From Amphirosellinia nigrospora (taxonomy: Eukaryota > Ascomycota > Sordariomycetes > Xylariales > Xylariaceae): 64,000 nucleotides of DNA. Made by a program: the position numbers and the translations under genes. The DNA lies in assembly GCA_004123355.1 (NCBI GenBank), contig SCHM01000004.1:7467017-7531016 (forward strand). Direction: 5' to 3'. The notes below the pieces were generated by a model that worked only from the letters and a program-made list of their open reading frames with translations, was not told where the DNA came from and did no database searches. Positions 43,576 to 57,503 of this stretch are shown one piece after another (position 1 is the stretch's first letter; every line of letters begins with the position of its first letter).

Positions 43576-45178
43576 ATAAGCTCTCTCTCTCTCCAATATT
43601 TCTTGAACAAGGATAGATGAGATGTACTCTGCGCAACATGACCGAAGCTTTTCGTGGCTGTAGCCTTGGACATTAGATCCGAGGTCTGTCGTATCCTTTG
43701 CACCCCGTTTTCTTTGAGAAGGAAATCACGGACGGTCTCGTGAATAAACTGTACAATAGGGGATTCTGTCCCAGCTATTTCGACTAGTCCTTTGATATAT
43801 CAAGTATGTATCTCTTCATATCCTCTATCGATACGCCTGAATGACAAGCATGGGACTTGCGGCTCTACCCAGATAGCGTTGCAAAATAAGCTTCCTGGGG
43901 TGAAAGGGGACGCTTTGAAAATAGGATCCATTGAATACAGCAGAGGAGCCCATCCGGATTCTTTTCGTCCCGGGTTAGTATATTGTGGAATAGGTCATGG
44001 AGATCAGTTGGGATGTCTTGGAGCGTTCTATGTAGGCGATCTGGACGTCCGCTGTCGTACTCTTGGTTGAGGATAGCTACTACCAAACTACCCACATGAA
44101 CACACCTGAGGCACTGTTCTGAATACTGGAGCGGATTTGGCTTGCGAGGTTTGTAGCACGATATTAAGTGTGTTATCGATATAACGGGAAATGTCTCCTC
44201 GGTGGTCATCCTGATTTTCAAGATGAACTATCAGGCCCTTTCTGACGGTTATATTGGGGTAATATCTGCTGGTAAAGCAGACAAGTAGTTTGGAGGAGCT
44301 ACCACGCGAGCCCGGTCGCGAATTTAAGCTAGCCAAAATGACAACATTCTTCGGATCTGTGACTCCTCGCACTCATCTAAAGCATCGATGAAACATACAA
44401 GAGTCAAGTCGTCTAGGGCGAGAAAAGCGCTTCTGAATAGTGATTCTAATGATTCGATAGTCCATTGATGGCTCTTGCGAGACTCTAGTAGATTTTGGAG
44501 TTGAGGGCGCGCGTGGAAAAGTTGCACGAGGAGCGATCGATATAGTCCTACGATAGACTTCTCAAGCTCTTCCCTCGTGCGTAGAAGAAGAAGGAGATCA
44601 AGATCTTCGTTTTGTCATCTCGACAAGGTTGGGAAAGGATGTATTTCATCAGAGTCGATTTTCCCGCCCCGGGTTTCCCTTAATCCACAGGAGGCCAGTG
44701 TGGGCGCCAAACATGCTCTCGTCAAGCCAGTCAAGGTACACACGTTCTCAAAAACCACTGACAGGTTGCCATGTGGCATCGCCTGTGTTCGTTTCACGGA
44801 GACCAATCTGAGAAAACTCGAGAGAACTGAGAATGGCCCTCCGTTGGCGTTTTAGAGCCTTCTGTAACTCCTTTCTCTGTCCTTTTCCTTTCGCGCCATT
44901 TTGTTTCGTCCCGAGACACAGCTGCGGAAGGAAAATTGTTCTCGACGCGTATCACTGTCGAGTCTATCAGTACACTTGCACGCACCGTCTAATTCATGAC
45001 ATGTTACGTTAAAGTCTCGACCAATCTCAAGTTGCGAGTTACTATTCACAATGCCGGAGCCAGTCAGTTCAATCCTACTTTGGCTTAGATCTTGGCTATT
45101 TGTGGCAGAAAGATTCGGAGAATAACCCTCTGGCTCCTGAGTGTCCTCGACCCTGGCACGCTTCGAAACTGGTGCCAT
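43576..45178 (-). pseudogene. NLR-like gene, 5' half (N-terminal motif plus NACHT NTPase)
   Basis: The start at 45178 gives MAPVSKRARVEDTQEPEGYS and then the motif GSGIVNSNSQLEIGRD (residues ~40-55). A FSQIGLRETNTGDATWQ...WLDES pre-NACHT segment follows, then Walker A GNPGAGKSTLMKYI (one G missing near 44672), RSLLVQLFHARPQLQNLLES, Walker B LTLVCFIDALDECEE, LLVCFTSRYYPNI and VVAILNQEYDSGRPDRL. Next come LQDIPTDLHDLFHNILTRDE, LLCCIQWILFSKRPLSPQEA and IVQFIHETVRDFLL-like sequence. Coding stops at the retrotransposon duplication CTTAT (43580-43576) within EILERERAY. Removing one duplication joins it to KEAMVNETTQLRAE at 30617, proving one original gene. Several one-base slips are present, some probably assembly errors. 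Expected role: cytosolic STAND NTPase receptor of the HET-E/NWD class triggering regulated cell death. It now lacks its ankyrin sensor. Confidence 0.85.
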
Positions 45179-45459
45179 CTTGCTCTAAAGCAACAGACCA
45201 ATGACACCGTATGCTGTGATATTTCTGGGTTTGCGCCGAGACAACCGAGACAGCCGAGAGGGAGGTCTCGACATTCTGTCTATCATTAAGTCCTGGCCTT
45301 GACTCCTTGTTTGAAAAGCAGCGATGGTCATAAGAGAGATTTCTAAAATACCATCCTGGACCAGGATGGATCAGAATGGAAAGACCCTTTGCCCAACCTC
45401 ATTGGCCTAATAATTACTTCGGTAGCGAGCGGGCTTCTTGGCCGCCTAATAAATGCCAC
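45179..45459. promoter_or_regulatory. NLR promoter remnant
   Basis: 281 bp of unmutated sequence between the NLR start codon and the target duplication GCCAC (45455-45459) of the right retrotransposon. Together with 55918-56159 it formed a ~0.5-kb divergent promoter with the PNP gene before insertion. No factor site was recognised. Confidence 0.5.
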
Positions 45460-55917: not shown

Positions 55918-56159
55918 GCCCTCCTTTAACCCTGCCACGCTTACGGCCCACTTTATGATGCAATGAACTGCCCCTGGACAATGAAACGTCACAGCGCGAA
56001 ATATTAGCCCCTGTGTTTACTAGGCTAACGGGAAGGCAGACTTAGGTCGCTTATATGTTATCGGGTGAGCTTAGTTCGATGCGTGCGCCCAATAGCCGCC
56101 ATAGTGCTAATGCCCTCCTCGTTGACATCTATTGTGAGTTTCTACTTAATACCTGATCG
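55918..56159 (+). promoter_or_regulatory. PNP-gene promoter remnant
   Basis: 242 bp of normal composition between the target duplication at 55913-55917 and the PNP-domain gene start. It is all that remains next to this gene of the former divergent promoter shared with the NLR gene. No specific factor site was recognised. Confidence 0.5.
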
Positions 56160-57503
56160 ATGGCAACATTACGACCTGAGGAATACCGCGTGGCTTGGAT
56201 AGCGCCGCTGGAGATTGAAGCACAGGCTGCAAAACACATGTTAGATCGCCAACATGAGGGCCGTTTCCAGATGAATCGCGGAGACGACTATGTCTATCAA
56301 GCTGGCGAAATGTGCGGCCATAATCTTATTATTGCCACGCTGCCTGCGGGCCAGGAATACGGCACCGGTTCAGCAGCAGCACTTGCTAGCCAAATCAAAA
56401 AGTTCTTCCCAAACCTTTGGTTTGGTCTCTTGGTTGGCGTGGTTGGTAGCCCAGGTTTCTGACTACTTAGCTAGCTCACTTATCGCCTAACATCTCCCTG
56501 CCTTTATGTTGAAAGACTGCTTCTTACATATACGGTAGGCTGCTGGTCTCCCTGATTTGGAGCGAAACCCCCCTCGGGATATTAGACTGGGTGATGTTCT
56601 TGTAGGGCTGCCTGACAATAACAGTTCTGGGCTCGTGGCATACGACTTGAGCAAGGATGTCGGAAACGATGAGCATTTACTTTTACGTCGGGGTCAGATT
56701 CTAACCCCCGCAGAGCCAGTAGTTAGATCTGCTATAAGCGCTATCAAAATCGATTGGCCATATGAAGGCAAGCACTTTCTGCACTATTACGAGACCATGA
56801 AGAAGCGGCGACATCTGACTGGGACTTTCGAGGACCCGGGATTTGAAAAAGACAAGTTCTATCGAGCCGGTGATAGAAACGAAGACGGCCTAGTTGAGCG
56901 CACAGAGAGGAAGGAGTACGAGCGTACCCAAGTGTGGTATGGGTCGATAGGTTCCGGCGAAAAGCTCACGAGGAATGCAGCGCGAAGGGACCAGCTAAGA
57001 GACAGGCATGATTTAATCGGACTAGAAATGGAAGCGGCTGGGATGATGAACCGTATCTCGGTTGGCGTCATCCGAGGCGTGTGTGATTACGCGGACCATC
57101 ACAAAAATAAGGAATGGCAGCCCTACGCGGCTGCTATGGCGGCTGCCTACGCGAAGGGCATACTAGCTAAGATCGGCCCGCATGGCATTCAATTCGACGC
57201 AAAGACGCCAGGTGATGTCTTCTCTTGTACCAAAAGTAGTAACCAGGGTTCATACTAACTTGGGATCATTTAGACTCTGCGAAGACGAGTCAAGACAAGA
57301 CATCGAACAAACGGGCCAAGAATGCGTCCACTGACGATACATATTCTGCAAGGGACAATGGTGTCCATCGAAATAAACGGCAAGGATCTCTTATGTATGG
57401 AAGGAGAGTGGTCCTTCATGGCCAAGGGAATGTAAATGTTGGCTCTGGAAGTATCAGCATTGGGAGGGATCAGAGCTTCGGAAGTAAAAATTTAGAACAA
57501 TAG
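56160..57503 (+). CDS. PNP_UDP (nucleoside phosphorylase-like) protein with C-terminal amyloid-like motif
   Basis: Single-domain relative of the PNP_UDP N-terminal domains common in fungal NLRs. Exon 1 (56160 to about 56440) has YRVAWIAPLEIEAQAAKHML, DDYVYQAGEMCGHNLIIATL and YGTGSAAALASQIKKFFPNL. The second exon (from about 56540) has PPRDIRLGDVLVG, YEGKHFLHYYETMK, VWYGSIGSGEKL, LIGLEMEAAGMMN, IRGVCDYADHHKNKEW and AMAAAYAKGI. I place a 62-bp intron at 57212-57273 (GTGATG, branch site CTAAC, TTTAG). It bypasses the TAA at 57256-57258 and adds a Lys/Ser/Asn-rich linker (KTSQDKTSNKRAKNASTDD). The C-terminus GQGNVNVGSGSISIGRD then ends at TAG (57501-57503). The terminal motif resembles that of the neighbouring NLR. 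The exact acceptor of intron 1 is uncertain. Probable role: effector activated by the NLR. Confidence 0.8.

Follow-up and report, generated by a model that had tools for sequence, protein, structure and literature searches.

A probable PUASM-like NLR/effector locus of Amphirosellinia nigrospora with its receptor gene split by an LTR element

The PNP_UDP-associated amyloid signalling motif (PUASM) was described in 2022 together with fibril and prion data (Wojciechowski et al., PMC9815663). PUASM peptides give ThT-positive fibrils, GFP-PUASM forms foci, and prion behaviour has been ascribed to the motif, for which the effector-side pattern FxGxGxQxxGxGxF has been published (PMC9815663). The same study describes a rarer PNP_UDP-linked motif, PF01048_015, with four pairs, and PUASM 1-2 are named in a separate report (PMC12261475). 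In bacteria, PNP has been described as an immune ATP nucleosidase (PMC10197012, PMC11249213). A literature search joining amyloid, NLR and Xylariales returned nothing.

Here we analyze a 64,000-nucleotide stretch of A. nigrospora DNA (the window), in which an intact effector gene adjoins a disrupted receptor gene. With a probability of about 0.74, this is the locus of a PUASM-like NLR/effector pair whose receptor gene is interrupted by an LTR element in this strain. A previous sequence-only reading of the window had proposed that an NLR and a PNP-fold effector form a pair here and bear related motifs at their termini. This proposal is supported; such motifs recur in related species, and the same genome has two other divergent pairs that carry them.

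Gene anatomy of the locus

The NLR gene is of the NACHT-ankyrin type and lies on the minus strand (ATG at 45178), and the gene of the nucleoside-phosphorylase-fold effector occupies the plus strand (56160-57503). The two genes are divergent and, as in PUASM pairs, neighbouring: once the intervening element A is subtracted, the gap measures 523 bp, which bears out the predicted distance of about 0.5 kb without the retrotransposon. Element A (45460-55912, plus strand), delimited by alignment of its LTRs and by its ends, is AT-rich, with a GC fraction of about 0.085, and is flanked by a 5-bp target duplication, GCCAC, at 45455-45459 and 55913-55917. An Rfam scan of the whole window gave 0 matches.

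The 5' half of the NLR gene (43612-45178, minus strand) comprises the motif, a linker, the NACHT (NPHP3_N) region and the sequence after it, distributed over several frames; tblastn with two orthologues matched it, residues 1-59 of P0123 aligning at the start and P0124 matching over residues 26-525, and one piece of it matches the Pfam model NPHP3_N at 8.8e-11. The 3' half, a linker followed by ankyrin repeats (P0124 residues 534-901), was located with the same two orthologues at 29262-30577, also on the minus strand. Between the NACHT and ankyrin halves sits a second AT-rich, LTR-bounded element of 13 kb, element B (30623-43575, minus strand; GC about 0.088), identified by LTR alignment and ends. 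Its flanking 5-mers, CTTAT and TTTAT, form a near-perfect target duplication with one mismatch. The sequence-only reading missed that the NLR is broken in this way. The ankyrin half, at about 29.26-30.58 kb, falls outside the range given by that reading.

When the NLR N-terminus (residues 1-108 of P0121) served as database query, none of the 79 candidates gave a hit at E 10, and relatives of the NLR were then searched with the NACHT piece instead. The Pfam model PilZN1 scored 17.9 bits on the N-terminus, below its cut-off of 25, and was taken as a chance match.

The effector gene encodes 394 amino acids in three exons (56160-56441, 56539-57211 and 57274-57503), as judged from the spliced frame, homologues and fold; the protein is 73-75% identical to four full-length Xylariaceae homologues at 98-100% coverage. 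Intron 1 (97 bp, 56442-56538) was absent from the earlier account; six splice choices leave the frame open, and the choice was settled by the homologues. Intron 2 (62 bp, 57212-57273), with the signals GTGATG...ACTAAC...TTTAG, had been predicted previously, and comparison argues for it, since the spliced protein continues into the motif as in the four Xylariaceae homologues.

Assignment of the effector to PNP draws on profile hits, which are weak, and on a structure model of a homologue, which has low confidence; both suggest the PNP_UDP_1/MTAN fold. The window effector gave no Pfam hit at E 0.1, so the PF01048 cut-off was not reached; among six relatives, P0040 scored 25.1 bits, equal to the cut-off, four scored 11.8-17.6 bits, and P0120 gave no hit. 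A profile hit to 4qez stood at 2.3e-4. The model of homologue P0001 (pLDDT 50.3), which gives nothing firm on the motif region, matched an MTAN in Foldseek at E 2.4e-8, with a TM score of 0.60 by target and 0.37 by query and an rmsd of 8.1. Similarly, the PADLOC model 'Effector, PN-superfamily' matched three homologues (5.2e-8 to 9.2e-9). The stretches EMEAAG and CDYAD are conserved; cleavage of ATP to adenine would be a candidate function.

Terminal motifs and their relation to PUASM

Both terminal motifs were found at the places claimed for them, one at the N-terminus of the NLR and one at the C-terminus of the putative PNP_UDP protein. The NLR-side motif of amyloid-signalling type, RIELTGSGIVNSNSQLEIGRD (45076-45014, minus strand), is diverged PUASM-like, and the effector-side motif, RVVLHGQGNVNVGSGSISIGRDQS (57405-57476, plus strand), is the Xylariaceae form of a PUASM-like tail. 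Against a profile of 12 NLRs from outside the clade, termini that begin FxGxGxQ, the NLR motif scored 21.2 bits, reached by 0 of 200 shuffles (maximum 2.2). The effector motif scored 25.4 bits against a profile built from 20 effectors that fall outside its clade (maximum 6.3 in 2540 shuffles). The cross-comparisons were low: the NLR motif scored -2.0 bits against the effector-side profile, four NLR orthologues scored -2.2 to -2.5 bits among the matches listed, and the window effector scored 4.9 bits against the NLR-side profile, inside the six-frame noise. The two sides join in a combined profile and through intermediates only. In six-frame scans the NLR motif scored 14.7 bits with the combined profile, where noise reached 6.4, and 20.5 bits with the NLR profile, where it reached 6.3.

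In the window effector, which reads LHGQGNVNVGSGSI, the first F of the published pattern is replaced by L, Q by V and the last F by I, and the strict pattern is absent. It is also infrequent among 120 effector homologues, 2 of which carry it strictly and 17 with the last residue relaxed (I or L in 15 of the 17). Of 120 NLR N-termini, none has the full pattern and nine have its first half. Judged from the published consensus and the homologue profiles, the window motifs are probably diverged PUASM forms, with V in place of Q and L in place of F.

Relatives and further pairs in the same genome

Both motifs recur in orthologues. In seven other fungi, relatives of both genes lie on equally long contigs; their placement on the same contig is inferred from these equal lengths, which say nothing of distance or orientation, and co-occurrence in other genomes, which the earlier reading had called for, is supported to that extent. 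P0130, an NLR that shares its contig with a PNP relative, fails the NLR profile (-0.2 bits, reached by 19 of 200 shuffles).

The A. nigrospora genome contains two more divergent pairs, L038 and L051, in which F and Q are kept; by eye, the L051 receptor looks NACHT-WD40. In addition, L040 is a PUASM-like NLR with no PNP gene nearby. Within the three same-genome pairs the core dipeptides of NLR and effector agree (VN/VN, QN/QN and QQ/QQ), which hints at pair-specific addressing; other pairs fit less well. True NLR-effector pairs outscore re-paired ones (2 of 20,000 permutations). At L044-L047, L054 and L055, PNP-like and NACHT-like matches follow in tandem on one strand, and these are apparently PNP-NACHT fusion NLRs, one protein each.

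The earlier suggestion of a possibly undescribed motif class, taken here as an amyloid class unrelated to PUASM, could draw on the mismatch of both window motifs with the strict consensus, on the -2.0 bits of the NLR motif with the effector-side profile, and on the lack of a match to any Pfam amyloid-motif model (at E 0.1, neither window protein hit a HET-s model). We consider a new class unlikely, because over its whole length the effector is homologous to effectors that bear the published PUASM pattern; the out-of-clade scores of both motifs also argue against it. It is possible, if doubtful, that the motif corresponds to PF01048_015, a variant already on record with the same effector type and few pairs, the comparison covering these two features. 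Chance likeness of two G/S/N-rich termini is very improbable. The pairwise score is modest, since in local alignment of both termini, with linkers included and the NLR side shuffled, 3 of 2000 shuffles reach it, and it is weaker in other pairs; the likeness of the Hypoxylon cercidicola pair does not exceed that of shuffles, 248 of 2000 of which reach it. Against chance stand the recurrence of both motifs in orthologues and the outcome of scanning 298,555 residues in six frames with the combined profile: the top seven matches were four NLR termini, three PNP termini and nothing else (the L038 NLR belonged to the training set, the other six did not), and the next match scored 6.4 bits.

A last alternative, which we regard as quite unlikely, is that the pair is still functional, the frame changes of the NLR having arisen as errors of assembly, with a truncated protein of motif and NACHT acting as receptor. 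The 5' half has at least six frame changes within 1.55 kb, with no room for introns. However, frame changes were rejected as proof of a pseudogene after a control in which HSP70 genes elsewhere in the assembly also change frame, as do an aspartate-aminotransferase-like gene and, about four times, the L051 NLR (both by eye), and the L038 and L040 NLRs, each of which shows a single change over about 1.6 kb. The case for disruption is therefore based on element B, which, with its LTR ends and near-perfect target duplication, puts the ankyrin half 13 kb away. Thus the pair as a functional unit in this strain, as first proposed, is not supported.

Proposed mechanism and comparison with known systems

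In the favoured reading of a PUASM-like pair with a split receptor, the ankyrin domain of the intact NLR would sense a ligand and the NACHT-ankyrin receptor would oligomerize, its N-terminal motif folding into a beta-arch amyloid seed. Templated by this seed, the C-terminus of the adjacent nucleoside-phosphorylase-fold enzyme would adopt the same fold, and the enzyme would cluster, become active and destroy a nucleotide pool, with ATP as the leading candidate, so that the cell is killed or arrested. In the present strain receptor function would be lost: element B splits the receptor, and the effector may therefore be orphaned or answer another receptor. More tentatively, the genome may possess three parallel PUASM-like circuits, separated by a short core address common to the receptor and effector of each pair. 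In Xylariaceae, both partners of one circuit would have drifted away from a Q-core towards a hydrophobic V-core before its receptor, in this strain, was lost to the LTR element, leaving the effector silent or listening elsewhere, for example to the L040 NLR.

If the favoured reading is true, PUASM-type signalling extends to receptors ending in ankyrins and to a core that lacks the conserved glutamine. The locus would also represent one route for the break-up of such a pair, in which the receptor is split and the effector gene stays open. One genome offers a natural series for testing what makes amyloid signalling pair-specific: in two pairs no element lies between the genes, in a third the receptor is split, and a further receptor has no PNP gene close to it.

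As in the PUASM pairs described in PMC9815663, a PNP-fold effector with one C-terminal motif neighbours an NLR with an N-terminal motif, an acidic residue directly precedes the NLR motif, and RD follows the NLR core. The window forms differ in having neither the conserved Q nor the first F, in the disruption of the receptor, and in a receptor that ends in ankyrins, where that study's account of PUASM reports NACHT or NACHT-WD40. The arrangement of a receptor with an N-terminal motif beside an effector with a C-terminal copy resembles HET-S/NWD2 of Podospora anserina (PMC9815663), but the window effector is predicted to be enzyme-fold, not a HeLo pore former, and has a single motif. Similarly, Detocs, with its bacterial ATP nucleosidase, places a PNP-superfamily effector in an immune pathway, but as a two-component system, whereas here an NLR carries an amyloid-type motif and ATP is a candidate substrate of the fungal protein. 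Finally, PNP and NACHT parts are combined both here and in the putative PNP-NACHT fusion NLRs of the same genome, which apparently unite them in one protein, whereas the window pair would rely on motif-based recruitment.

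The effector and its C-terminal motif

The window lies on one (C6) of the 11 contigs of the 48.1-Mb genome. The effector gene occupies positions 56160-57503 of the plus strand and encodes 394 residues, with introns at 56442-56538 (97 bp) and 57212-57273 (62 bp) whose splices match the homologues in alignment. The NACHT-ankyrin receptor (NLR) begins with the ATG at 45178 on the minus strand, and the sequence-only reading was accurate. The best effector homologues, from Nemania, Rosellinia, and Xylaria, are 73-75% identical over 98-100% of the protein, and a shorter model from Ustulina is 85% identical across 73%; by these matches the host most likely belongs to the Xylariaceae. 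Directly downstream (58036-58710, plus strand) is an open gene for an H-type lectin (Pfam H_lectin, 2.1e-22) with a G/S/N-rich stretch in mid-protein, after VTVNVFNTG.

The effector itself has no Pfam match at E 0.1. PNP_UDP_1 is listed for five of the six homologues scanned, at 11.8-25.1 bits against a cut-off of 25.1; the sixth, P0120, has no match to this family. A profile of 24 aligned effector sequences, the window's among them, matched a single PDB sequence, the MTA/SAH nucleosidase 4qez (E 2.3e-4). The AlphaFold2 model of homologue P0001 is of low confidence (pLDDT 50.3, pTM 0.54); its 50 listed PDB matches are MTA/SAH nucleosidases, futalosine hydrolases, purine nucleoside phosphorylases, or uridine phosphorylases, the best one for this low-confidence model having E 2.4e-8, TM 0.60 by target and 0.37 by query, and rmsd 8.1. 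Across the 24 sequences, E20, M258, and E259 do not vary and D277 hardly does; the EMEA and D277 stretches align with 4qez in the profile match. We take these four residues to be the counterparts of the MTAN active-site residues.

The consensus published for the PNP_UDP-associated amyloid signalling motif (PUASM) is FxGxGxQxxGxGxF (PMC9815663). Among the 120 effector homologues listed, a loose pattern is present near the C-terminus in 20, and by eye in four more (P0019, P0021, P0076, P0105); another tail, F[NH]GPI[TS], is found in 7, and the remaining 89 have neither tail or end early. The strict consensus occurs in two of the 120, both from Annulohypoxylon (P0045, P0057). Allowing I, L, V, or M at the last position raises the count to 17, and allowing L at the first raises it to 18. 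Four homologues, P0001-P0004, share the form of the window effector, in which V or I replaces Q and L replaces F. When these four were excluded, a profile built from 20 effector motifs gave the window effector 25.4 bits, compared with at most 6.3 for 2540 shuffled termini. The motif had been proposed as possibly an undescribed class; it is most likely of a known kind. In the literature searched, we found no description of the variant with a V core and an ankyrin receptor, which may stand in a supplement as PF01048_015, the second, rarer PNP_UDP-linked motif.

The receptor-side motif and its pairing with effectors

The effector-side profile gave -2.0 bits for the window NLR and -2.2 to -2.5 for its orthologues P0122-P0125 (among the matches listed). 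An NLR profile was built from 12 motifs picked by eye, 11 from NLR homologues and one from locus L038 of this genome, none from the window clade. With it, the window NLR scored 21.2 bits and P0122-P0126 7.9-17.6, with 0 of 200 shuffles reaching any of them; P0130, an NLR apparently sharing a contig with a PNP relative, failed (-0.2 bits, equalled or exceeded by 19 of 200 shuffles). Apart from the 11 training rows, P0122-P0126 and three Hypoxylon proteins were the only ones of the 120 listed NLRs to score above 2.8 bits. The window effector scored 4.9 bits (0 of 200), or 3.8 (2 of 200) once Hypoxylon NLRs were added. In the 120 listed NLR N-termini the full published pattern is absent, and its first half occurs in nine.

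A combined profile (16 NLR and 19 effector motifs) gave 15.4 bits for the window NLR and 28.0 for the effector. When the window and 18 loci elsewhere in the genome (298,555 residues) were scanned in six frames, the top seven matches of this profile, 13.5-38.1 bits, were four NLR and three effector termini, six of them outside the training set, which held the NLR of L038; the next match had 6.4. In the same scan the window effector fell within noise (4.9 versus 6.3 bits) when the NLR-only profile was used.

Two of these loci resemble the window pair. In L038 (C11), a NACHT-ankyrin NLR with FEGHGIQNGGNFTVGRD and a divergent PNP gene are ~0.72 kb apart, and the PNP tail, GMQNLGSGNISAGRD, follows a frame change; in L051 (C8), ~0.48 kb separates an NLR with FHGQGFQQTGGFIHINGD from a PNP in divergent orientation that ends in FFGRGIQQAGSGSMSVGGD. 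Their motifs retain F and Q but do not match the strict PUASM pattern all the way to its last residue. The NLR of L040 (C1, 3933-5533) carries the PUASM-like FAGYGLQNTGNFKAGRD; no PNP gene was found in this 9.5-kb locus, and the receptor is a candidate partner of the orphaned window effector. A PNP paralogue at L039 (C4, 3568-4449 and just downstream) has a different tail, VFNGPISGRNVVAG, of a type that recurs in 7 of the 120 listed homologues and may be a sigma-type motif; no NACHT was found in its 9-kb locus. In 7 of the 18 loci (L044-L047, L049, L054, L055), PNP and NACHT matches stand in tandem on one strand (~1.2 kb apart in L049), as would be expected of PNP-NACHT fusion NLRs.

Relatives of both proteins occur, under the same organism name, on contigs of identical size, hence inferred to be the same contig, in seven taxa among the matches listed (120 of 1153 for the effector, 120 of 145 for the NLR): Xylaria sp. 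FL1042, Nemania abortiva, Rosellinia necatrix, Xylariaceae sp. AK1471, Hypoxylon sp. NC0597, H. cercidicola, and Hypoxylon sp. FL0890. An eighth candidate, Mariannaea (NLR named Pfs, NB-ARC and ankyrin, 2.55-Mb contig), was left uncounted; the Ustulina matches lie on contigs of unequal size. The alignment score of NLR and effector termini was reached by 3 of 2000 shuffles for the window, 4 for NC0597, and 5 for Xylaria, and for the weaker pairs by 37 (Rosellinia), 66 (FL0890), 100 (Nemania), and 248 (H. cercidicola); Nemania sp. FL0916, with its genes on contigs of unequal size, gave 439. AK1471, whose effector model stops short of the motif, was omitted from the pair counts.

The core dipeptide is identical within all three pairs of this genome and agrees in 6 of 9 pairs when six pairs from other species are added (reached by 102 of 20000 permutations); only 2 of 20000 random re-pairings reached the summed motif score of the nine true pairs. 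Of the six possible pairings within the genome the true one sums highest (150, next 127), but the L038 NLR scores 48 with the L051 effector versus 47 with its own. All these figures make the case look stronger than it is, because the motif borders were set manually, a frame change shortens the effector motif of L038, and the species compared include relatives that do not count as independent.

Transposable elements and the state of the receptor gene

Residues 26-525 of the orthologue P0124 align to 45163-43612 and residues 534-901 to 30577-29262. Between these NLR halves lies an AT-rich element with LTR ends (30623-43575) flanked by CTTAT/TTTAT; a related element in opposite orientation (45460-55912), with GCCAC on both sides, separates the two genes. 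The elements have GC contents of 0.085-0.088 versus 0.47-0.50 in genes, TpA/ApT of 1.17-1.19 versus 0.75-0.85 in the NLR halves and effector, and (CpA+TpG)/(ApC+GpT) of 0.18-0.28 versus 1.11-1.31; RIP may be the cause of this composition.

The 5' half of the window NLR has at least six frame changes in 1.55 kb with no room for introns, and the effector has none besides its introns. A single change was counted in ~1.6 kb of the L038 NLR, and likewise in that of L040. These changes can be sequencing errors, since HSP70 genes (C8:855379-857197, C7:1398639-1400377; several in the assembly) and, by eye, an aspartate-aminotransferase-like gene at ~13.5-14.3 kb of the window also shift frame without intron room, and the assembly probably contains many small indels. 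The L051 NLR, by eye, has about four, and the count is therefore only suggestive of a broken receptor. The pair is most likely disrupted in this strain. Tryptophan-synthase-like open frames were seen by eye in the translation of 18329-19850 (minus strand).

Comparison with known signalling systems

Past the resemblance of sequences, we infer each step by which such a pair would act: the receptor would sense, then oligomerise, and would template its motif onto the effector, which would destroy nucleotides. We propose this sequence because PUASM peptides are reported to form fibrils and GFP-PUASM to form foci, with prion behavior reported in Podospora (PMC9815663), and because reviews describe the PNP_UDP domain as frequent among fungal NLRs and the PNP effector of bacterial Detocs as cleaving ATP (PMC11249213, PMC10197012).
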